Virus record (IMG/VR): IMGVR_UViG_3300033141_004211
Location: 64,001-100,391 of that record
Strand: one strand, 5' to 3'
DNA from: a virus
Length of the DNA stretch: 36,391 nucleotides
The notes beneath the pieces were generated by a model, which did no database searches, was not told the DNA's origin, and worked only from the letters and a program-made list of their open reading frames with translations. How positions within the stretch are numbered: the first letter of the stretch is position 1; each line of letters starts with the position of its first letter. A program made the translations under genes and the position numbers. Below, piece by piece: positions 3,125 through 31,389 of this stretch.

Positions 3125-3130
3125 AAAAGC

Positions 3131-3406: not shown

Positions 3407-3428
3407 AATAGAATATGATGTTGGTGAA

Positions 3429-3457
3429 AGTATACCACATTTAGTTCATTTTGTCAA
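3429..3457 (-). promoter_or_regulatory. Sigma-70-type promoter
   Basis: Minus strand TTGACA (3452-3457), 17-bp spacer, TATACT (3429-3434). The spacer ends CTAAATGTGG, identical to that of the promoter at 21187-21215. It should drive the 56-residue gene at 3189-3359 and probably reads on into the terminase genes. Confidence 0.85.
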
Positions 3458-3474
3458 GGCAATTGAACAGATTC

Positions 3475-5386: not shown

Positions 5387-6601
5387 TCAAATCCCGTTGA
5401 CTTCAATCCGTAGCGTGCGCCCGCCCTCAAGCCGTCGCAACTTCTTCCAACTGATGGAATGTGACAATACCTCGCCATTCAGTCTGCGCACATCAAAATA
5501 GCCGCTGGACCGCAACCCGTAGATAAAGCCCTCGCGCCCATCGGGTAATCGCACCCGATCACCGCGCCTGAACCCCTTTGCGCTGGCAATAGTGTTGCGG
5601 ATGTGCGAGCGCGCACCCTTGAACAACTTGCGGTTTTGGCGGCGAGCGAATACACCCAGGTAACAAACTGGGACGCGCTGCTGCTCATGCCCGCCCGCAA
5701 TCACAAAGGCGTCGTTAATGTGTGTCTTGGGCAAGCCCAAGGTCATCCGTTTCGCCTTGGTGATGTAGCCAAAGGTGACTGACCGCCTCAGATCAGCAGT
5801 TGCCCGCATTACATACGCCTTGAGGGTGTTGAACTGGGTTACATCCCGTAAGCTCTCCGGGGCTTTGAGTTCAAGCGGCTTCGCGCCGCTGTGATGATCC
5901 CGGTGACAAGTCTCGCACAGGGTGACCAAGTTGGCGGGGCGATCACTCCCGCCTTCTTTCCGTTGACGAAGGTGGTGGACGGTCAGCACTGGATCACCCG
6001 ATTTGCCCTTGCACGCCCGACACTGATGCCGATCTCGCCACAAGACATACTCGCGCACATTTTGGAAACCGTACTGCTCGCCTTGCTGGTAGCCCACGCC
6101 TGCGACACTTGGATTGACCAATTTGTGCGGATCAAAATTGCCGATCTCAAATGACCAATAAGTCACCGGCAAGATACTCCCCACCAAGTTGATAACCTTG
6201 AGCGTTTCTTCTACTTTCGCCCGCACCGATGGGGGCAGTTCGTCTTTCCGCTTGCGGTTGAGAAAGCGGGGCGGGCGATAGCGAGTCTTGCGACCGCGCC
6301 GGGTGTGGCGGAACATCCGTCGCTTGGTGAGCAAACCGGAGATGTCTGTCCGCAATTTGAACTCGGCGGCGAACAGTTCCCGCCTATCGGAGACGACGGA
6401 TACGCCCACGTGGACTGTGCCCAAATCCACGCCTGCTTTGAGGGGTTGGGTATAACCACTCTCACGGTCAAGCAGGCGGATGGTAAATGGCTCACGCCGG
6501 ACGACTTTGGCGCGCCCCGAGCTGATCCAGCGACGCACCGCGCCGCAGCGTTTGGTAGGCATTAGAGGTCTACCGTTCTTGTCTTGTACGTAAACAAGCA
6601 T
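5387..6601 (-). CDS. iscB: IscB RNA-guided nuclease (HNH + split RuvC)
   Basis: IscB is the compact ancestor-type relative of Cas9. It uses an omega RNA to cut matching double-stranded DNA. The order is intact over 404 residues: PLMP segment (GRPLMPTKRCGAVRRW, about 10-25), RuvC-I AGVDLGTVHVG (Asp 59), an Arg-rich bridge helix (about 93-118), RuvC-II YWSFEIGNFD (Glu 152), HNH with CRACKG and LTVHHLRQRKEGGSDRPANL...CHRDHH (about 194-237), RuvC-III THINDAFVIAGG (His 294, Asp 297), and a C-terminal basic RNA/TAM-interaction region. All catalytic residues look present. Its guide RNA would come from the HEARO-type region just upstream. The role in the phage is unknown: selfish maintenance of the element, or weaponised against competing DNA. 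Confidence 0.92.
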   Translation of the reverse strand: MLVYVQDKNGRPLMPTKRCGAVRRWISSGRAKVVRREPFTIRLLDRESGYTQPLKAGVDLGTVHVGVSVVSDRRELFAAEFKLRTDISGLLTKRRMFRHTRRGRKTRYRPPRFLNRKRKDELPPSVRAKVEETLKVINLVGSILPVTYWSFEIGNFDPHKLVNPSVAGVGYQQGEQYGFQNVREYVLWRDRHQCRACKGKSGDPVLTVHHLRQRKEGGSDRPANLVTLCETCHRDHHSGAKPLELKAPESLRDVTQFNTLKAYVMRATADLRRSVTFGYITKAKRMTLGLPKTHINDAFVIAGGHEQQRVPVCYLGVFARRQNRKLFKGARSHIRNTIASAKGFRRGDRVRLPDGREGFIYGLRSSGYFDVRRLNGEVLSHSISWKKLRRLEGGRTLRIEVNGI

Positions 6602-6869
6602 CTTGAGAATCCTTTCGGATAAGTCAACCTTACGGCTGTTTGGTGCTCCTCGCCAATGTTGGAAGGGCTTGTTAGACCGGTAGCACCGTCCCTACCCCAC
6701 AGGACTTTTAACCACCGGTGACAGTTGCCAGGAGCTGGAGCATTCACCCCTGGGTGTCGTGACCCAACCAACGTAGCCCGATAGCCTTACGGCCCTGGCT
6801 GAGGCTGGTCAACTTGGGGCTTGCGGGATGCCCCCACAAGCCCTCGACTTCTAGTCGGGGGTAGTTGAC
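6602..6869 (-). ncRNA. HEARO / IscB omega RNA
   Basis: About 268 nt directly upstream of iscB contain nested GC-rich hairpins and no plausible protein. On the minus strand it opens GTCAACTACCCCCGACTAGA, then GTCGAGGGCTTG and a GGCTTGTGGGGG/CCCGCAAGCCCC stem. This is the 5' signature I associate with HEARO RNAs that accompany IscB genes. In this family the guide is the sequence immediately 5' of the scaffold. Here that is about 16 nt at 6870-6885 (ATGGACCGGCAGCAGT on the minus strand), overlapping the stop of the upstream HNH gene, so the current guide is phage sequence flanking the insertion. Confidence 0.82.
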
Positions 6870-13815: not shown

Positions 13816-14162
13816 CAGAAACCCCTCTCCTTGAACCTAAACGGGCAGCACAACCAGGGCCAGTCTATGGCCTCTCTCTGCTCTATGAAGGTCACGCCAC
13901 CAACCTCGAAAGCAATCTCATAAGTCCTCTCACTGATCCGCCGCGACGAACAGACTATCATACCAAGCGGGACTTCAACATTGCCAACCCGCCTGGAGGG
14001 TGACCGGGGGTGCCCCTCAACGAACCAGGGGGGGCACCCCCAACACACTCGATATGGACAGTACCCATGCTCACAGTTCGCATGAGCACATATCTCTCCT
14101 ACACGGGTGCTGATCGCATCAGAACCCCGCAGCCTTAGCGGGCTCTGGTTTCCCACCATCAC
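13815..14162 (-). CDS. Cys-rich unknown protein (115 aa)
   Basis: Not recognised. A Cys/His cluster ICAHANCEHGYCPYRVCWGC (about 24-43) followed by a CC pair near the C-terminus (WPWLCCPFRF) suggests metal binding. ATG 14162 has GGGAG 7 nt upstream but overlaps the preceding gene by 44 nt, so an internal start remains possible. Confidence 0.55.
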   Translation of the reverse strand: MMVGNQSPLRLRGSDAISTRVGEICAHANCEHGYCPYRVCWGCPPWFVEGHPRSPSRRVGNVEVPLGMIVCSSRRISERTYEIAFEVGGVTFIEQREAIDWPWLCCPFRFKERGF

Positions 14163-16041: not shown

Positions 16042-16521
16042 TCAGTCTATAAGGCGTCTGACGTACTCTTTTGCAACCTCGGGGGAGAACCACCAACCCT
16101 GCCCTTTGAGGGTACGCCCAAGACGCTTGATGGGTTGTGGCAACCCATTCTGCGGGGCACCACGCACCAGCGCCAGGACCTTCTGCTTTGGCACGTCTGC
16201 AAACACAGCCAATTGCATAGTACCCATCCCCTCACGGATTTCATCGGGGTTAACACGCTCCAGCCCATAGCGATCTGGAGCGAGCTCTAGGAAATACCTG
16301 ATGACTCCACGAGCCCTGCACCTGAGCCACATGGCATAATTCCGTGACTCAGTGTCAAGTCGTGTCATGGTTCCCTCAACGGTCTCACCGTCGAGGATGT
16401 GCATTGCTGTGTGGCGATGCGCTGGCAAACCAACATCGGATGCCTCTATATCCTTCTTGAGCAACTCAATCTGGGTGGGAACACCGCGCCACCCTCTAAT
16501 CCTAATCTTTCTACCCTTCAC
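16042..16521 (-). CDS. Unknown basic protein (159 aa) displaced from its ribosome site
   Basis: It starts at GTG 16521 with a very basic N-terminus (MKGRKIRIRGWRG). The C-terminal part (KQKVLALVRGAPQNGLPQPI, then KGQGWWFSPEVAKEYVRRL) resembles a phage DNA-binding or MerR-like helix-turn-helix with wing. The TnpB element ends 6 nt upstream of the start. Its original ribosome site AAAGGAGG appears to be at the far end of the element (17974-17981). Removing the element would put that site 8 nt before the GTG. Expression now probably relies on sequences at the element end. Confidence 0.62.
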   Translation of the reverse strand: MKGRKIRIRGWRGVPTQIELLKKDIEASDVGLPAHRHTAMHILDGETVEGTMTRLDTESRNYAMWLRCRARGVIRYFLELAPDRYGLERVNPDEIREGMGTMQLAVFADVPKQKVLALVRGAPQNGLPQPIKRLGRTLKGQGWWFSPEVAKEYVRRLID

Positions 16522-16533
16522 CCTTCTGGTTCC

Positions 16534-17775
16534 TCAAACTGTGCCAACTTGACAGCAGTCGAGCCCGTGTCCATTCACGGGTGAGGGACTTATGCCGAAG
16601 CTGCCCTCTTCGCGCTTCACAGGCCGCCCAATGGCGTCGCCTCCACGCGCAGGCACCGGTAACCCTCGGTGCTTCAACCCCCAGTCACGGAGGTTTGTCG
16701 CTGCATTGTGATCGCGGTCATGAACCGTACCACAATCGCAAATCCATGTTCTGTCCCCGAGCGTTAAGGAGTCATTGATGCTTCCGCAAACACTACAGAG
16801 CTTGCTGGATGGGAACCATCTGTCTGCGGTGAGCACCGTGCCACCTCTCCAAGCGAGTTTGTAGCAAACCTGCCTTCGGAACTCCCCGAAGTTTGCGTCA
16901 CTTACTGCCTTGGCAAGACGATGGTTCTTTACCATGCCCTTGACGCCCAAATCTTCGAGAACCACTATCCCGAAGTTGTCAGCCAAGTAACGCGTGGCCT
17001 TGTGCGTAGCGTCTGCCCGTATATCCGCGATGCGTTTCTGGATGCGGGTCACTCTCCGCTTGGCACGCTTACGGCGATTGCTTCCCATCTGCTTCCTAGC
17101 AAGCTGCCGCTGCGCTCGCGTCAAGAGCTGCTCGTACCGCTCGATAGCCTTTGGATTCTCGAAGACCGTGCCGTCCGACAGCGTGGCGAGGGTCTTCACG
17201 CCGAGGTCAACACCCACTATCCGGTCTTGTTTCTCGACCGGGCCAAGGGCTTCGACTTCGACGTTGAAAGAGGCGTACCACTTGCCAGCGCGTTCGGTGA
17301 TAGCCACGGTGCCGACGAGCCTGCCGTCGAAGCGGAGAGGTTTAGTCATACGCACCCAGCCGAGCCTGGGGATACGGAGCCGCTTCCCCTCGACCTTAAC
17401 CGCATCAGGTTCGAGGTGAAATACCATCCTGCTTCGCTTTTTCGATTTCCACCTCGGGAAACCAGGCTTGCTTTCCCCGTTCTTCACGCGGCGGAAAAAG
17501 TGGCTAAATGCTTCGTCCAGATGCATCAGGGCCACCCGTGGAACAGACTTGGGTACATTCTTGAGCCAAGCGGTCTCCGGCTCACGCTTAAGCTGAACGA
17601 TTTCGACCATGAGCTTGTAGGCTCCAGGCGATTTACCCTCGGCCTCACAGCTTTCGATTTTGCGTTCAAGCCCGTAGTTGTAGGCCCACCGGTGAGCACC
17701 CGCCCACTGCACGAACTTTGTACATTGTTTGTCGTTGGGCAGCAGTTGAACCTTATGCCCCTTTTGGATACGCAT
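16534..17775 (-). CDS. tnpB: TnpB RNA-guided nuclease (copy 1)
   Basis: A full-length 413-residue TnpB, the ancestor-type relative of Cas12, which cuts DNA matching an omega RNA copied from the 3' end of its own element. Catalytic residues are all visible: RuvC-I IVGVDLGVKTLATLSDG (Asp 190), RuvC-II VVLEDLGVKGM (Glu 274), zinc ribbon CSVCGSIN...WICDCG (Cys 327/330/346/348) and RuvC-III DRDHNAATNL (Asp 355). The omega RNA should span the last part of the gene and end at 16528. The guide slot then reads AGAAGGGTGAAGGG, which is phage sequence. It has its own promoter at 17909-17937. It is clearly different in sequence from copy 2, so not a recent duplication. Confidence 0.92.
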   Translation of the reverse strand: MRIQKGHKVQLLPNDKQCTKFVQWAGAHRWAYNYGLERKIESCEAEGKSPGAYKLMVEIVQLKREPETAWLKNVPKSVPRVALMHLDEAFSHFFRRVKNGESKPGFPRWKSKKRSRMVFHLEPDAVKVEGKRLRIPRLGWVRMTKPLRFDGRLVGTVAITERAGKWYASFNVEVEALGPVEKQDRIVGVDLGVKTLATLSDGTVFENPKAIERYEQLLTRAQRQLARKQMGSNRRKRAKRRVTRIQKRIADIRADATHKATRYLADNFGIVVLEDLGVKGMVKNHRLAKAVSDANFGEFRRQVCYKLAWRGGTVLTADRWFPSSKLCSVCGSINDSLTLGDRTWICDCGTVHDRDHNAATNLRDWGLKHRGLPVPARGGDAIGRPVKREEGSFGISPSPVNGHGLDCCQVGTV

Positions 17776-17908
17776 GATCCTGTCTCAAAAACAGGTGACC
17801 CCTCAGTTCTTGGCGGTTCGGTTGTGACAGACAGAACCAGCGTTTGAGAACTTGGGGGCCACGAAAACAACAAACCCGCCACGCCTTATAGCTCTGTCTG
17901 TCATATAC

Positions 17909-17937
17909 ACTATAGCACAATCCCTCTCTGCTGTCAA
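17909..17937 (-). promoter_or_regulatory. Promoter in the left end of TnpB element 1
   Basis: Minus strand TTGACA (17932-17937), 17-bp spacer, TATAGT (17909-17914). The -35 box is part of the internal repeat shared by the two element ends. It gives tnpB copy 1 an independent transcript and may read through into downstream phage genes. Confidence 0.75.
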
Positions 17938-17988
17938 GTTGTTAAAGTGCCCGGGGTAAGATTGAGGAACCTACCTCCTTTCTAAGAG

Positions 17989-18344: not shown

Positions 18345-18474
18345 CCGTTCTCTGATACCTGCTAGAATCTCATTATTAAGGCCCATGTTAGAATCCTTCA
18401 AGCTCTTTCTTAACGCTGTATTCCACATGGAGGGAAACACGCAGCACGCGGCGTTTATCCGTTCTCCGATACCT
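18345..18474. repeat. Direct repeat pair downstream of TnpB copy 2
   Basis: CCGTTCTCTGATACCT (18345-18360) and CCGTTCTCCGATACCT (18459-18474) match at 15 of 16 positions. They flank about 98 bp without a gene. The distal copy overlaps the tnpB stop codon, where the omega RNA scaffold should end. The proximal copy abuts the start of the helix-turn-helix gene. One of them is likely the true right end of the element. Confidence 0.6.
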
Positions 18475-19720
18475 ACTCAAATCTCGCATAGAGATTGATG
18501 CTCGGTTCCTGCTTCGCCGAGGCTGCCAACGATGCTACCGTTGGTCTTACATCCTCTCCACAGGCGTTTTGGAGCTTCGCTCCCAGTTCCGGCGGAACTC
18601 GCCGTACCGCTAAGTTCACGATGTTAATTGCTGCATTCAGGTCTCTGTCCAGTGTTGCACCACAGCCATCACACACCCATACTCTGTCGGAAAGGGTGAG
18701 GTGGTCGTTAATAGTACCGCACACATGGCACGTTTTACTGGACGGGAAGAACCTATCCACCGCGTACACCATTACACCAGCCCAAGCAGCCTTGTACTCC
18801 AATTGCCGCCTGAACTCGTAGAAGCCAACATCTGATATTGCACGCGCTAGGTGATGATTCTTCAGCATATCGCTAACATTGAGATCCTCAATTGCTACAA
18901 GCCAGGGTCTCTCGTTATCCGGCTTGGTTCTCGCCACGATAGCAGAGGTGGCTTTATGTAGCGCGTCACGGCGAATGTTAGCGATTCTGTGATGAAGTCG
19001 CGCAATCTTGGCCTTGGTCTTCTTGTAGTTGTTGCTACCGCGCTTCCTGCGAGCTAACTGGCGCTGTATCCGCTTGAGTTTCCGTTGTGCTTTTCGCAGG
19101 GGCTTGGGATTCTCAAAGCGCCGACCATCGCTGAGGATAGCCATATCCTTCACTCCGAGGTCAACACCAATTGGCTCGCCAGTCGCCCGCGTAACGCCGA
19201 TCTCCTCACGCACTTGAACGCTGACATACCAACGACCAGCACGTTCAGAGACGGTTGCGGACAGGATATGTGCATCAGTGGGGATATAACCGCGCTCTTT
19301 CAGGCGTAACCAACCAATACGTGGCAGGCGTATCCGGCCATGCTCAACCCGAATCGCACCGTCTACCCGGAACTTCAGGGGGCTACGCTTACGGGACTTG
19401 AACTTGGGGAACCCTGGCTCCTCACCACGCTTCACTCTGCGGAAAAACGCCCGGTACGCTTTGTCCAAGTCGCGCAAGGCGTTCTGGGGGACGCTCTTGG
19501 GATAGTTATAGAGCCAGGGGTATTCAGTCTTCTTCGGGGCGTTGAGTTGTCGGTGTTGCTCTATGGCATTGCTTGATTTGCCAGTAGCCTCATACTCAGC
19601 GATGCGTCTTTCAAGGCCCCAGTTCCACGCCCAGCGAGCAATACCAGCGCACTGTAACAGCAGGGTGCGTTGTTTATTGTTCACATCTATCTCAACTTTG
19701 TATGCCTTGAGAATTTCCAT
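18473..19720 (-). CDS. tnpB: TnpB RNA-guided nuclease (copy 2)
   Basis: A 415-residue TnpB with intact catalytic centre: RuvC-I PIGVDLGVKDMAILSDG (Asp 187), RuvC-II LVAIEDLNVSDM (Glu 278), zinc ribbon CHVCGTIN...WVCDGCG (Cys 331/334/350/353) and RuvC-III LDRDLNAAINI (Asp 360). Its ATG overlaps the TAA of the upstream gene (TAATG), so it appears translationally coupled to the phage operon. No left transposon end separates it from the preceding gene. That arrangement suggests either insertion exactly at a stop codon or a TnpB fixed in the phage genome. Its omega RNA should lie over the gene's 3' end and the repeats downstream. Confidence 0.92.
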   Translation of the reverse strand: MEILKAYKVEIDVNNKQRTLLLQCAGIARWAWNWGLERRIAEYEATGKSSNAIEQHRQLNAPKKTEYPWLYNYPKSVPQNALRDLDKAYRAFFRRVKRGEEPGFPKFKSRKRSPLKFRVDGAIRVEHGRIRLPRIGWLRLKERGYIPTDAHILSATVSERAGRWYVSVQVREEIGVTRATGEPIGVDLGVKDMAILSDGRRFENPKPLRKAQRKLKRIQRQLARRKRGSNNYKKTKAKIARLHHRIANIRRDALHKATSAIVARTKPDNERPWLVAIEDLNVSDMLKNHHLARAISDVGFYEFRRQLEYKAAWAGVMVYAVDRFFPSSKTCHVCGTINDHLTLSDRVWVCDGCGATLDRDLNAAINIVNLAVRRVPPELGAKLQNACGEDVRPTVASLAASAKQEPSINLYARFE

Positions 19721-19997
19721 TAGTCTTTCTTCTTCCTGCGACGCTCAGCACTGCGGCGACCATAGAGCTTGGCCGCGAAAGAAGCCATTAACGCCAAGAT
19801 GTCCTCGACCAACTCGGCCTCATAAGATTTCGGTAAAGACTCCTCAATCCATTCCACAATCGCTGACCGAGATCCTCACAGTCAACAGACGCGAGGGGGA
19901 CATCCACGACGAACTTGCCACAGCCAATCGCACAGTGTCCCTCCTGCGGGATGTCAATCCCGTAGGCATCCTTCCAACCCTGGGTGTCTCTACTCAT
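19720..19997 (-). CDS. Small protein interrupted by a -1 frameshift
   Basis: ATG 19997 overlaps the stop of the upstream SWIM-like gene (ATGAGTAG). The first frame reads MSRDTQGWKDAYGIDIPQEG and on to PLASVDCEDLG. At about 19845-19852 sensible coding moves to the -1 frame (AIVEWIEESLPKSYEAELVE, then DILALMASFAAKLYGRRSAE and a Lys/Arg tail), ending TAA 19720-19722 overlapping the TnpB start. The span is one base short of 93 codons, consistent with a single missing base. A decayed gene, an assembly error or programmed frameshifting are all possible. The family is unknown. Confidence 0.6.
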
Positions 19998-21148: not shown

Positions 21149-21186
21149 AATCCAATTCCTCTAGAGATTGAGTGAATTCTAAGGTA

Positions 21187-21215
21187 AGTATACCACATTT
21201 AGCCCGGCTTGTCAA
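21187..21215 (-). promoter_or_regulatory. Promoter of the zinc-protein/replication unit
   Basis: Minus strand TTGACA (21210-21215), 17-bp spacer, TATACT (21187-21192). The 15-mer CTAAATGTGGTATAC is identical to that of the promoter at 3429. It starts the long transcription unit that runs through the zinc proteins into the replication genes. Confidence 0.85.
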
Positions 21216-21221
21216 GTTTGG

Positions 21222-22252: not shown

Positions 22253-22633
22253 TCAGATGCGTTTCTGGCGCGCGGTGTCGCGCACGGTCTGCAGGTCCAG
22301 CACCTCGGCCACCTCGTAGCGTGGCGGCATCCCACCCACACGGCGCAGGCGCACCACGGGCGGAAAGTAACCCATCCGCCCGTGCAGCTCGGCCAGCAGC
22401 GCGACGGCGATAAAGTTGAGGGAAGGCGGGTTGACCAGCAGGGGCAGTGTCTGCCACTCAGTAGGGGAGAGAGCGCACTCGTCGGCCAAGGCCGTCACCT
22501 GTGGTAGCAAGGGCTGTTGAGCGTCTATCTGACTGGACACCTCGATCACCCGTTCCACCTGCTGGCCAGTGAAGGCCTCGATCTGTTGCAGGTGGTCGGG
22601 GGCGAGAGGGTGGGAGAAGTTGAGGATGATCAT
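22253..22633 (-). CDS. csx15: Csx15-like CRISPR-associated protein (putative ring nuclease)
   Basis: A 126-residue protein beginning MIILNFSHPLAPDHLQQIEA. It has the block EWQTLPLLVNPPSLNFIAVA at about 59-78, AELHGRMGYFPPVVRLR at about 81-97 and RYEVAEVLDLQTVR near the end. I associate this pattern with the Csx15 family found beside type III CRISPR systems, mostly in Chloroflexota. Csx15 is regarded as an ancillary protein that handles cyclic oligoadenylate second messengers (ring nuclease); that is family knowledge, not shown here. No type III effector or CRISPR array lies nearby. Its ATG overlaps the stop of the pentapeptide-repeat gene (ATGA), and its sequence is visibly GC-richer than its neighbours, suggesting acquisition. 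In a phage it could blunt type III immunity. Confidence 0.66.
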   Translation of the reverse strand: MIILNFSHPLAPDHLQQIEAFTGQQVERVIEVSSQIDAQQPLLPQVTALADECALSPTEWQTLPLLVNPPSLNFIAVALLAELHGRMGYFPPVVRLRRVGGMPPRYEVAEVLDLQTVRDTARQKRI

Positions 22634-23175
22634 ATCTTTATGCGCATCTCTTCACAAAGACGCGCAAACAACTCTGCGAGGGTCATAGTGGGAGGCCCGG
22701 GCTCCCACACGTCCCGGCGTTCCTGAAAACGGAACGCTCGAACCTCTTTCCCAAACGGGCAGTCTCCCCCCTCTGCCCACGCCTGGAACGCTTTAGACTT
22801 GATGTTTACTGAGCAGAAGGCGTCCCACTTCATGAGCTCTATGATGAGCTCATTACCCGGGTCACCCCAATTGACCTGGGAGAGGATGGCCAGGGGGGAA
22901 TATTTTGCCCCCCGAAGGTTGGCGCACTCTATGTCGGCGCCTTGGAAGTTGGCACCCTCCAGGTTGGCCCCGGCGAGGTTAGCGCAGGCCAGGTTGGCCA
23001 TAAAAAAGTTGGCACCAACCAAGCTGGCGCCTGAGAAATTGGCGTCCCGGAGGTTGGCCTTAGAGAAGTTGGCGCCATCCAGGTTGGCGCCTGAGAGGTC
23101 AACTCCCTCCAGATTGGCGCCAGAAAAGTCAGCGCCAACCAACTCGACTTTGTACCTTAATTTTTCTTCTTTCAT
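22630..23175 (-). CDS. Pentapeptide-repeat protein
   Basis: Residues about 12-90 are a run of A(D/N)LxG pentapeptides (GADFSGANLEGVDLSGANLD and so on), forming a right-handed quadrilateral beta-helix. A C-terminal domain follows, with LIIELMKWDAFCSVN and WAEGGDCPFGKEVRAFRF. That tail occurs on many phage pentapeptide proteins; its role is unknown. Some pentapeptide proteins mimic DNA and inhibit gyrase, but this cannot be read from sequence. It is translated just ahead of the Csx15-like gene with a 4-nt overlap and carries two strong hairpins in its leader (23201-23258). Confidence 0.85.
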   Translation of the reverse strand: MKEEKLRYKVELVGADFSGANLEGVDLSGANLDGANFSKANLRDANFSGASLVGANFFMANLACANLAGANLEGANFQGADIECANLRGAKYSPLAILSQVNWGDPGNELIIELMKWDAFCSVNIKSKAFQAWAEGGDCPFGKEVRAFRFQERRDVWEPGPPTMTLAELFARLCEEMRIKI

Positions 23176-29335: not shown

Positions 29336-30212
29336 TATTCACCTCCGGATAGATTCTATAATTCCCAATCCAGGTGGGAATTTCGGTTCCAAGGACATCA
29401 AAACCCTTGGTTCTCCAATCGTCATTCAATCCTGCCCCGAAGAGCAAGGCGAAATCTACATCGTCATCTCTCTCCAGGGCGTCTATGTACCAAGCCAAGC
29501 TTGCTTTATAGTTCGTTTCATAATTCGGGGCAGCAAAGCGAAAACCCAAGTTCTCTTGGCCAGCTATTACCCCTCCGTCTAATCCGCACTCCGTTATGGC
29601 AAACTTTACGTTGCGGAATCCTGCTTTCTTGATAGCCCGAGAAGCCACTTTCCATCTCAGGGTTTGCCACATGCCATCATTGCCTTGCATTAAGCCATCA
29701 CAGTAAGTCCTGTACATTTGGGGCCAGTCATACTCATGCCAGCCTAGCCTGCAAACGGGACAATTATCTAGCGCAGTCAGAGTACGATGAAACACTGTTA
29801 TGTCATCTCTGAAATGGCCAGTGTTAAGGTTCAAAACGATAGCATGGATGCCCATCTGTTTGTGAGCCTCGGCGATAAACGCCGAGGCAAAGCGGTCGGC
29901 CAAGTCGTGCCGCCCGAGGTCATAGGAATAGATGTACTCATTGTTGCCGAGTACATAATCCAGGATGTCTGAGAAGGGTGCTGTCTCTCTTTTTAGAGTA
30001 CTTACCGCCTGGGCAGCATCTTCCTCGGGGTGCTGGTCCCAGGTGAAGTTGGGCCAGTGACGGAAGATAGACTTGACCCCCATGTCCCTCAGAGCTTCAT
30101 AAAAGCTTCTCTCTTTCACCATAATCCCCATTGCTGCCCTTGGCTTAGCCACCCGACAGAAATCCAACAGCCCGGAGGCGTTCATTTGGCATTGTGCCCC
30201 TAGTTTCCCCAT
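29313..30212 (-). CDS. TIM-barrel glycosidase-like protein (299 aa)
   Basis: The pattern of a clan-A glycoside hydrolase is visible: DYVLGNNEYIYSYD gives the Asn-Glu acid/base motif (Glu 92) and VKFAITECGLDGG the strand-end nucleophile (Glu 208), about 116 residues apart. Trp-rich strands lie between them. It may cleave or bind cell-surface or capsular glycan during infection, or be a lysis enzyme. No signal peptide is seen, consistent with a virion component or with release at lysis. The ribosome site GGAGGAAGG precedes ATG 30212, which overlaps the upstream gene by 13 nt. Confidence 0.66.
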   Translation of the reverse strand: MGKLGAQCQMNASGLLDFCRVAKPRAAMGIMVKERSFYEALRDMGVKSIFRHWPNFTWDQHPEEDAAQAVSTLKRETAPFSDILDYVLGNNEYIYSYDLGRHDLADRFASAFIAEAHKQMGIHAIVLNLNTGHFRDDITVFHRTLTALDNCPVCRLGWHEYDWPQMYRTYCDGLMQGNDGMWQTLRWKVASRAIKKAGFRNVKFAITECGLDGGVIAGQENLGFRFAAPNYETNYKASLAWYIDALERDDDVDFALLFGAGLNDDWRTKGFDVLGTEIPTWIGNYRIYPEVNNGRAKGF

Positions 30213-31252
30213 TTTCCTTCCTCCACAACAGCCTGGAAAGCGGTAATATATTCGGGATTGTCCGCTATATCCTCGATAGTATCCCCCATATAAGAAGAAG
30301 GACTCCAGGGATAAAACATTATCCCGTCAAAAACATCATAGCTTAAGACCTCCATACCCACCTGCCGCACCCAATCAGCGGAGGGAAGGGGGATACCACG
30401 AGCCGGGTACTCATATACTGCTATGAGAGCTACCACCCGTAAGCTTGGGTATTTTGCCTTCAACTGTTGGGCGGCCGCCGCTTGGTCTGTGACATAGCCC
30501 GTTTGCTGATGCTTCTTCATGGTGATAGTAAACCCAGCGATGTCTACAAATTCTCCCCCGTTAGCGAAGGATTCTACACAACCTAACTGCCCAAAGTTGA
30601 CCATCACTTGGATGTCTGGGTCTACACCTTTTACGGTCTGATAGAACTGTCGCATCTCACTAGGCGTAATACCCCACTTCCCCGGATGACACGGTTCGTC
30701 AATAATGTAGTACCCAAAGAAGTCGGGGTCACTAGCTATGTCATTGCCGGAGAACACTGCACTGATGATCTGCTCCAGCTTGATAAAATCAATCTTTGTC
30801 CCGCTCTGGAACGCCCGCCGACTTTGCGCCCGGCCAAGAAGTTGCAACCCCTGAGACTTCGCTGCCTGTAGCGATGGGGATAGGTCGGCCTGATAGGTTT
30901 GGTTGGAGACAACACTCATCCCTAAGCTCGCTACAGCCCCGAAATCGGCGGAGTCATTGACCGCCATAATGCCCACGAACCTCCTTCGGGGATACTCCGT
31001 CGGTGTGGGCGTTGCCGTAGGTGTTGCCGTAGGCGCAGGCGTCATCGTACTGGTAGGCACACTCGTAGGAGTCTGAGTGGCGGTGCTGGTAGGCAATGGG
31101 GCCGCACACCGTACCAAGACCGCCTCACCCGGCTCCAGTACTACCGTCTCTACATCAGTGGCTCCAATAAATCCCCGGCTTCCAAAAACCGCCACTCCCA
31201 CAACCACAATGAGAAATGCTAACACACAAAGTGTTACCTGCCAAGATTTCAT
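30200..31252 (-). CDS. Membrane-anchored TIM-barrel-like protein with Thr/Pro linker (350 aa)
   Basis: From ATG 31252 the protein has one N-terminal transmembrane or signal-anchor segment (VTLCVLAFLIVVVGVAVFG, about 6-24). A Thr/Pro-rich linker (TSTMTPAPTATPTATPTPT, about 62-80) follows, of the type common in Chloroflexota secreted proteins. A barrel-like domain comes next, with GYYIIDEPCHPGKWG (a glycosidase-like Asp-Glu), VDIAGFTITM and DGIMFYPWSPSS. It pairs with the next TIM-barrel gene. The start region is disturbed by a 53-bp miniature element between the ribosome site and the ATG. A TTG start within that element at 31279 is less likely. Confidence 0.66.
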   Translation of the reverse strand: MKSWQVTLCVLAFLIVVVGVAVFGSRGFIGATDVETVVLEPGEAVLVRCAAPLPTSTATQTPTSVPTSTMTPAPTATPTATPTPTEYPRRRFVGIMAVNDSADFGAVASLGMSVVSNQTYQADLSPSLQAAKSQGLQLLGRAQSRRAFQSGTKIDFIKLEQIISAVFSGNDIASDPDFFGYYIIDEPCHPGKWGITPSEMRQFYQTVKGVDPDIQVMVNFGQLGCVESFANGGEFVDIAGFTITMKKHQQTGYVTDQAAAAQQLKAKYPSLRVVALIAVYEYPARGIPLPSADWVRQVGMEVLSYDVFDGIMFYPWSPSSYMGDTIEDIADNPEYITAFQAVVEEGKWGN

Positions 31253-31259
31253 GATCCAC

Positions 31260-31312
31260 GGTTCCTCAAACTGTGTCAAAGTGCGTTGCCAACGTGAGTA
31301 GTTTGAGGAACC
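31260..31312 (-). mobile_element. 53-bp miniature element related to TnpB element 1
   Basis: Perfect 13-bp terminal inverted repeats GGTTCCTCAAACT (31260-31272 and 31312-31300) surround a 27-bp core. One end matches 16 nt of the TnpB element's right end (GGTTCCTCAAACTGTG). The other resembles its left end (GGTTCCTCAA, then GCACTTT). It looks like the two ends of that element fused by internal deletion. It lies between a ribosome site (AGAAAGGAGTA) and ATG 31252. Confidence 0.72.
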
Positions 31313-31389
31313 TACTCCTTTCTAGACTAATTACTCACACTCCAGGTCCACATCCAACAAAGCGTTGAGCTCAATAGTGACTCAACCAC

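Follow-up and report, generated by a model that had tools for sequence, protein, structure and literature searches.

A 53-bp miniature element with TnpB-element ends at a ribosome-binding site of a phage genome

Introduction

How did a 53-bp palindrome carrying the ends of a TnpB element come to lie between a phage ribosome-binding site and the start codon of a gene, and how might that gene tolerate it? The original prediction described the palindrome as a miniature of a full TnpB element in the same phage, placed like it after a ribosome-binding site, and proposed targeted insertion and possible mobilization in trans. We analyzed this locus in a window of 36,391 nucleotides, bases 64001-100391 of a 100,391-bp IMG/VR record; coordinates are those of the window unless given as genome positions.

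Results

The miniature (31260..31312, minus strand) consists of 13-bp perfect inverted repeats flanking a 27-nt core. Read along the minus strand from 31312 to 31260, it is GGTTCCTCAAACT-27 nt-AGTTTGAGGAACC, 53 nt in all, with no mismatch between the arms. The full element, 1,444 bp long (16528..17971, minus strand), has the same ends, GGTTCCTCAA...TTGAGGAACC (10-bp perfect repeats, or 12/13 counting one mismatch), lies between AGAAAGGAGGTA and a GTG start, and encodes the 413-aa protein TnpB1 (16534..17775, minus strand), which matches general TnpB models. At the right, the two elements have 16 nt in common (CACAGTTTGAGGAACC, 31260..31275 in the miniature, minus strand; E = 9e-4 against the genome). 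At the left, the miniature's arm (31300..31312, minus strand) together with the TA before it gives TAGGTTCCTCAA, 12 nt shared with the full element, 10 of which fall inside the boundary originally drawn; this boundary can be placed only to within about 4 nt, since two intact ribosome-binding sites also have TAGG after them.

A whole-genome search for the end sequence, proposed beforehand as a check, found GGTTCCTCAA without mismatch at exactly four places in the 100,391-bp record, and these are the four ends of the miniature and the full element; length alone would predict about 0.2 occurrences. Inverted repeats of at least 13 bp occur four times in the record (the miniature's, another of 13 bp, and two longer ones), so the palindrome alone is unremarkable, and it is the identity with the TnpB element's ends that exceeds chance. 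An unrelated regulatory hairpin or terminator resembling TnpB ends by coincidence would suit a genome in which 13-bp inverted repeats are not rare, but the exact 16-nt match, the 12 nt at the other end, the same flank, and the absence of the end 10-mer elsewhere in the 100 kb make such a coincidence very improbable. A terminator or Rfam family was also considered in its own right and rejected: no T run follows the palindrome on either strand, and there is no Rfam match. The observation of a miniature whose 13-bp perfect inverted repeats are TnpB-element ends, with 16 nt identical at one of them, is confirmed.

The miniature is present as a single copy in the record; like a MITE or PATE, it has ends that match its parent element and no coding capacity. 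Its 27-nt core has no significant match in the interior of the full element (shuffle fractions of 0.16 and 0.10 for the two ends), and no direct repeat of at least 7 nt joins the two ends, so these data do not support an origin of the miniature by simple deletion from the full copy now in the genome. Judged by its ends, it is a diverged terminal-only relative of that element.

The core of the Shine-Dalgarno sequence is AGGAG, and the miniature is immediately preceded, on its 5' side, by the ribosome-binding site AGAAAGGAG (31315..31323, minus strand). This sequence has nine copies in the genome on both strands (200,782 positions). Seven are uninterrupted, all with an ATG within about a dozen nucleotides; the remaining two are interrupted by exactly the miniature and the full TnpB1 element (site at 17975..17983, minus strand). 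Because the seven other copies all stand ahead of an ATG, we take AGAAAGGAG to be the phage's own ribosome-binding site. Each element thus lies between this site and a start codon: the miniature splits it from the ATG of a 348-aa gene without a Pfam match (30200..31246, minus strand), and the full element separates a 159-aa gene (16042..16521, minus strand) from it, ahead of the GTG. The left flanks, AGAAAGGAG-TA at one element and AGAAAGGAG-GTA at the other, are nearly alike, and joining the miniature's flanks yields AGAAAGGAG, 9 nt, and ATG, in agreement with what had been predicted for its excision; two insertions at the same kind of site, both between a genuine ribosome-binding site and a start codon, are likewise borne out. 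Neither viral contigs nor INPHARED yielded relatives of the lipoprotein-like gene next to the miniature; terminase relatives in these collections were distant ones only, none usable to seek empty sites, and no empty site was found.

The TnpB proteins of this phage place the elements within a known lineage. In a tree of 114 rows that includes TnpB1, TnpB2, and TnpB3, all three fall in one clade of 45 (support 100), and 19 of these are immediately preceded by an IS607-type serine transposase. TnpB1 forms a long branch in this clade and has no TnpA of its own; its nearest sampled relatives, at 45-49% identity, come from Chloroflexota genomes and one Actinomycetota assembly. TnpB2 (415 aa, 47% identical to TnpB1; 18473..19720, minus strand) follows a C-terminal remnant of an IS607 serine transposase TnpA, PKSYEAELVEDILALMASFAAKLYGRRSAE (19744..19833, minus strand), which lies upstream as in Chloroflexota relatives; TnpB3 is at genome positions 42981-44231. 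The right ends of TnpB2 and TnpB3 read GGAGAACGG, like many Chloroflexota IS607-type right ends, and finish in AACGG, while that of TnpB1 and the miniature, TTTGAGGAACC, is close to TTTGAGGAACGG of L177 and L180 and finishes in AACC. With TnpA upstream of so many clade members and a TnpA remnant before TnpB2, the TnpB1/miniature family belongs by lineage with IS607, and its descent from IS607-type elements, which pair a serine transposase TnpA with TnpB, is most likely as far as these sequences indicate. None of the other TnpB relatives has these terminal inverted repeats. The record contains no intact Y1 or serine transposase, and the suggestion of mobilization in trans finds no support in it.

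TnpB1 and TnpB3 each have a structured leader RNA of about 78 nt between promoter and tnpB (17825-17903, minus strand, and L005 4673-4749, minus strand, respectively) with a 13-bp closing stem, in which 6 pairs are altered on both sides yet kept; this RNA has no match in Rfam, 301 Chloroflexota genomes, or the searched TnpB loci. In L004, positions 13930-14030 (minus strand) resemble the left region of TnpB3 and continue into a short IS607 TnpA-like tail, for which tblastn gave no support. The window also holds an IscB-like gene with RRXRR and HNH domains (5387-6601) and a HEARO RNA directly upstream (6638-6869), both on the minus strand; with TnpB, the phage therefore has both kinds of RNA-guided nuclease.

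The target-adjacent motifs of IS607 TnpB, next to the left end, are AGGAG in 18 of 22 strains and GAGGG in 4 of 22 (PMC11061315), the published AGGAG motif coming from another IS607 TnpB clade (RAGATH-18) than that of TnpB1. In this phage, AGAAAGGAG supplies an AG-rich motif beside the left end in both copies, and GAGGG is seen by inspection in the left flanks of several relatives from Chloroflexota. Since the AGGAG/GAGGG target motif coincides with the Shine-Dalgarno core, insertions in a compact phage genome would land in ribosome-binding sites, and the location shared by the two elements probably reflects this known AG-rich preference rather than a new targeting system. The proposal of targeted insertion holds as regards the type of site, which the published preference explains better than new targeting would. 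Among the Chloroflexota relatives, 5 of 19 right ends have an open reading frame of 60 codons or more, starting with ATG, no farther than 25 nt downstream (background 12%, P = 0.07), which is suggestive only of a general placement ahead of start codons.

Two other properties of IS607 elements, insertion at GG and the normal absence of terminal inverted repeats (PMC6188088), are not shared by the TnpB1 element and the miniature. The left flank of the full copy contains GG (AGGAGG), and the right ends finish in AACC followed by AG or GT; GG at both junctions is found in neither element, and because the right ends are AACC, not AACGG, the GG core for standard IS607 exchange is missing. Perfect terminal inverted repeats of 10 bp (full element) and 13 bp (miniature) are present. 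An IS200/IS605-type single-strand element, served in trans by a Y1 TnpA and recognizing its flank through left-end guide pairing, would make sense of another feature: in the full copy, TACC at positions 14-17 can pair with GGTA, and in the miniature, TACT(C) at positions 13-17 can pair with (G)AGTA, the flank change GGTA/AGTA being mirrored by internal TACC/TACT at nearly equal distance. These are two cases only, however, noticed post hoc; terminal inverted repeats are atypical of such elements, the TnpB clade is tied to the serine transposase rather than to Y1, the record has no Y1 gene, and the combination that defines this type (a Y1 TnpA or a TnpB lineage tied to it, with subterminal hairpins) is absent here. 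We consider this origin unlikely.

Further miniatures were sought in the window and beyond it. A candidate of about 38 bp (18345..18382, minus strand; left boundary deduced) carries a right-end-like GGTATCAGAGAACGG, which agrees with the TnpB2/TnpB3 right ends at 14 of 15 positions, and a possible left end, GGCCTTAATAATGAG, before it; it lies between a candidate ATG (18386-18384) and a 118-aa gene. Removing it would join ATG-GTG-GCC in frame, depending on the boundary chosen. Scans of viral contigs gave three matches to the 16-nt end, a number plausible by chance, and one match to the inverted pair, in L002 inside a methyltransferase-like coding stretch, which we judged to be chance. A search of 400 Chloroflexota genomes for miniatures with a left and a right end (GGGTAATAA...GAGAACGG) gave one match versus two control matches; at this level, there is no evidence of a widespread class.

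The 53-mer could also be a relic that never moved, left when a full TnpB1-type element inserted at the ribosome-binding site and lost its interior in place. The record does hold decayed pieces, namely the TnpA remnant before TnpB2, a decayed C-terminal fragment of TnpB (genome positions 52306-52416, minus strand), and a solo right end at 18345-18360, and Haloquadratum offers a documented case of repeat-mediated core deletion that left 52 bp (PMC3119063). A core unrecognizable as that of the full element and the lack of direct repeats speak against such decay, although a diverged ancestor copy would look alike. We regard this history as a serious but minority possibility.

As a linear spacer, the miniature places AGGAG 62 nt from the ATG; with the arms paired, the distance is 9 nt. 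In the predicted transcript, the arms pair with a probability of 0.89-0.97, and the AUG is predicted to be more open when the stem forms. The miniature's right end also carries a GAGG 11 nt ahead of the ATG, and the full element has one at its own right end, 10 nt ahead of the GTG. In the split sites of T4 genes 25 and 38, a hairpin shortens 27 to 11 nt and 22 to 5 nt, respectively (PMC3014915); a hairpin between Shine-Dalgarno sequence and AUG that restores the spacing is what structure prediction yields here as well. Compared with shuffled sequences, the leader with the hairpin shows no excess stability (z = -1.2) and thus does not demonstrate that structure is under selection.

This bears on whether the palindrome, whatever its origin, has been domesticated and kept as the hairpin of a split translation initiation region. 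Its stem is perfect over 13 bp, compared with a mismatch at position 11 in the full element, the stem probability reaches about 0.97 with a more open AUG, and T4 genes 25 and 38 are arranged likewise (PMC3014915). On the other hand, this is one sequence only, its stability is ordinary relative to shuffles, and the right-end GAGG at 11 nt could suffice. Domestication is a tentative reading, to which we give about one chance in four.

Elsewhere in the window, a motif of about 31 nt is repeated at 3428-3458 and 21186-21216 and also at 3130 and 24028. On the minus strand, the first two of these copies show a TTGACA-like box and a TATACT box separated by about 17 nt, and the motif is probably a shared phage promoter. 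A pentapeptide-repeat-like protein of 181 aa is encoded at 22630-23175 (minus strand), and its gene contains 15-nt periodic repeats (22915-23142).

Discussion

Our best explanation, to which we assign a probability of roughly 0.6, is that the 53-mer is an ends-only derivative of the TnpB1 family, of IS607-type descent, that came to lie at AGGAG and is tolerated through a hairpin and a substitute GAGG. Like the full element, the miniature lies directly 3' of an AGGAG that is the phage's Shine-Dalgarno sequence, and an IS607-type ancestry, with GG-containing targets flanked by AGGAG or GAGGG, would lead to insertion into ribosome-binding sites. The miniature may have been moved by an IS607-type transposase from elsewhere or may be what is left of a longer copy that lost its interior at that site. 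Its presence could be tolerated if the arms form an mRNA hairpin that leaves the Shine-Dalgarno sequence only about 9 nt ahead of the ATG, and also if the GAGG in the right end, 11 nt before the ATG, acts as a substitute. The original interpretation is partly supported, in that kinship with the TnpB element and the site preference stand. As for an extremely small mobile element, the small size holds, with a precedent at 52 bp (PMC3119063), but movement as a 53-mer is not upheld.

If this explanation is correct, the AGGAG motif of IS607-type TnpB would be tied to the Shine-Dalgarno core; we found no paper connecting them. IS607-type TnpB elements would then be expected at gene starts, persisting only while translation continues. 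The 53-mer would be a transposon end pair turned translation-permissive spacer, and elements like it would be a possible origin of split ribosome-binding sites, for example the one in T4 gene 25. In a bolder form, derivatives of about 40-55 bp would home to ribosome-binding sites, the TnpB motif being the Shine-Dalgarno core, and would spare the gene through a self-complementary spacer and GAGG, each forming a portable split site; we hold this to be doubtful.

Closest in size are the 52-bp PATEs of ISHwa23 and HqIRS46 in Haloquadratum walsbyi (PMC3119063). The PATE of ISHwa23 retains only the termini of a TnpB element of 1.5 kb and resembles the miniature as a TnpB-only transposon cut to its fused ends, with mobility in trans suspected and unproven. 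The Haloquadratum elements differ in being IS605-type, with near-terminal palindromes and a deletion at 19-22 bp direct repeats, on an archaeal chromosome, whereas the phage miniature has terminal inverted repeats, no direct repeats, an IS607-type clade, and a ribosome-site target. Ends-only TnpB derivatives are therefore already known; what seems new is the phage, the IS607-type TnpB ancestry, and the ribosome-site setting.

With the IS607 family (IS607, IS1535, and ISFba1; PMC6188088, PMC11061315), the phage elements share the TnpB clade, a nearby TnpA remnant, an AGGAG flank, and the lack of a visible target duplication. They differ in that TnpB1's element has no TnpA, terminal inverted repeats are present, and the right-end GG core is missing. 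The IS1535 TnpA needs LE 20-60, and the 53-bp miniature, without most of that region, falls well short of the length known to be bound by TnpA.

T4 genes 25 and 38 (PMC3014915) likewise have a hairpin between Shine-Dalgarno sequence and AUG that gives functional spacing. Their spacers are 22-27 nt and of no known transposon origin, whereas here the spacer is 62 nt and the predicted hairpin is formed by 53 nt of transposon ends; translation through this split site is putative. The hairpin seems to turn an ordinary ribosome-binding site into a split one like that of T4 gene 25, in what is apparently a new setting.
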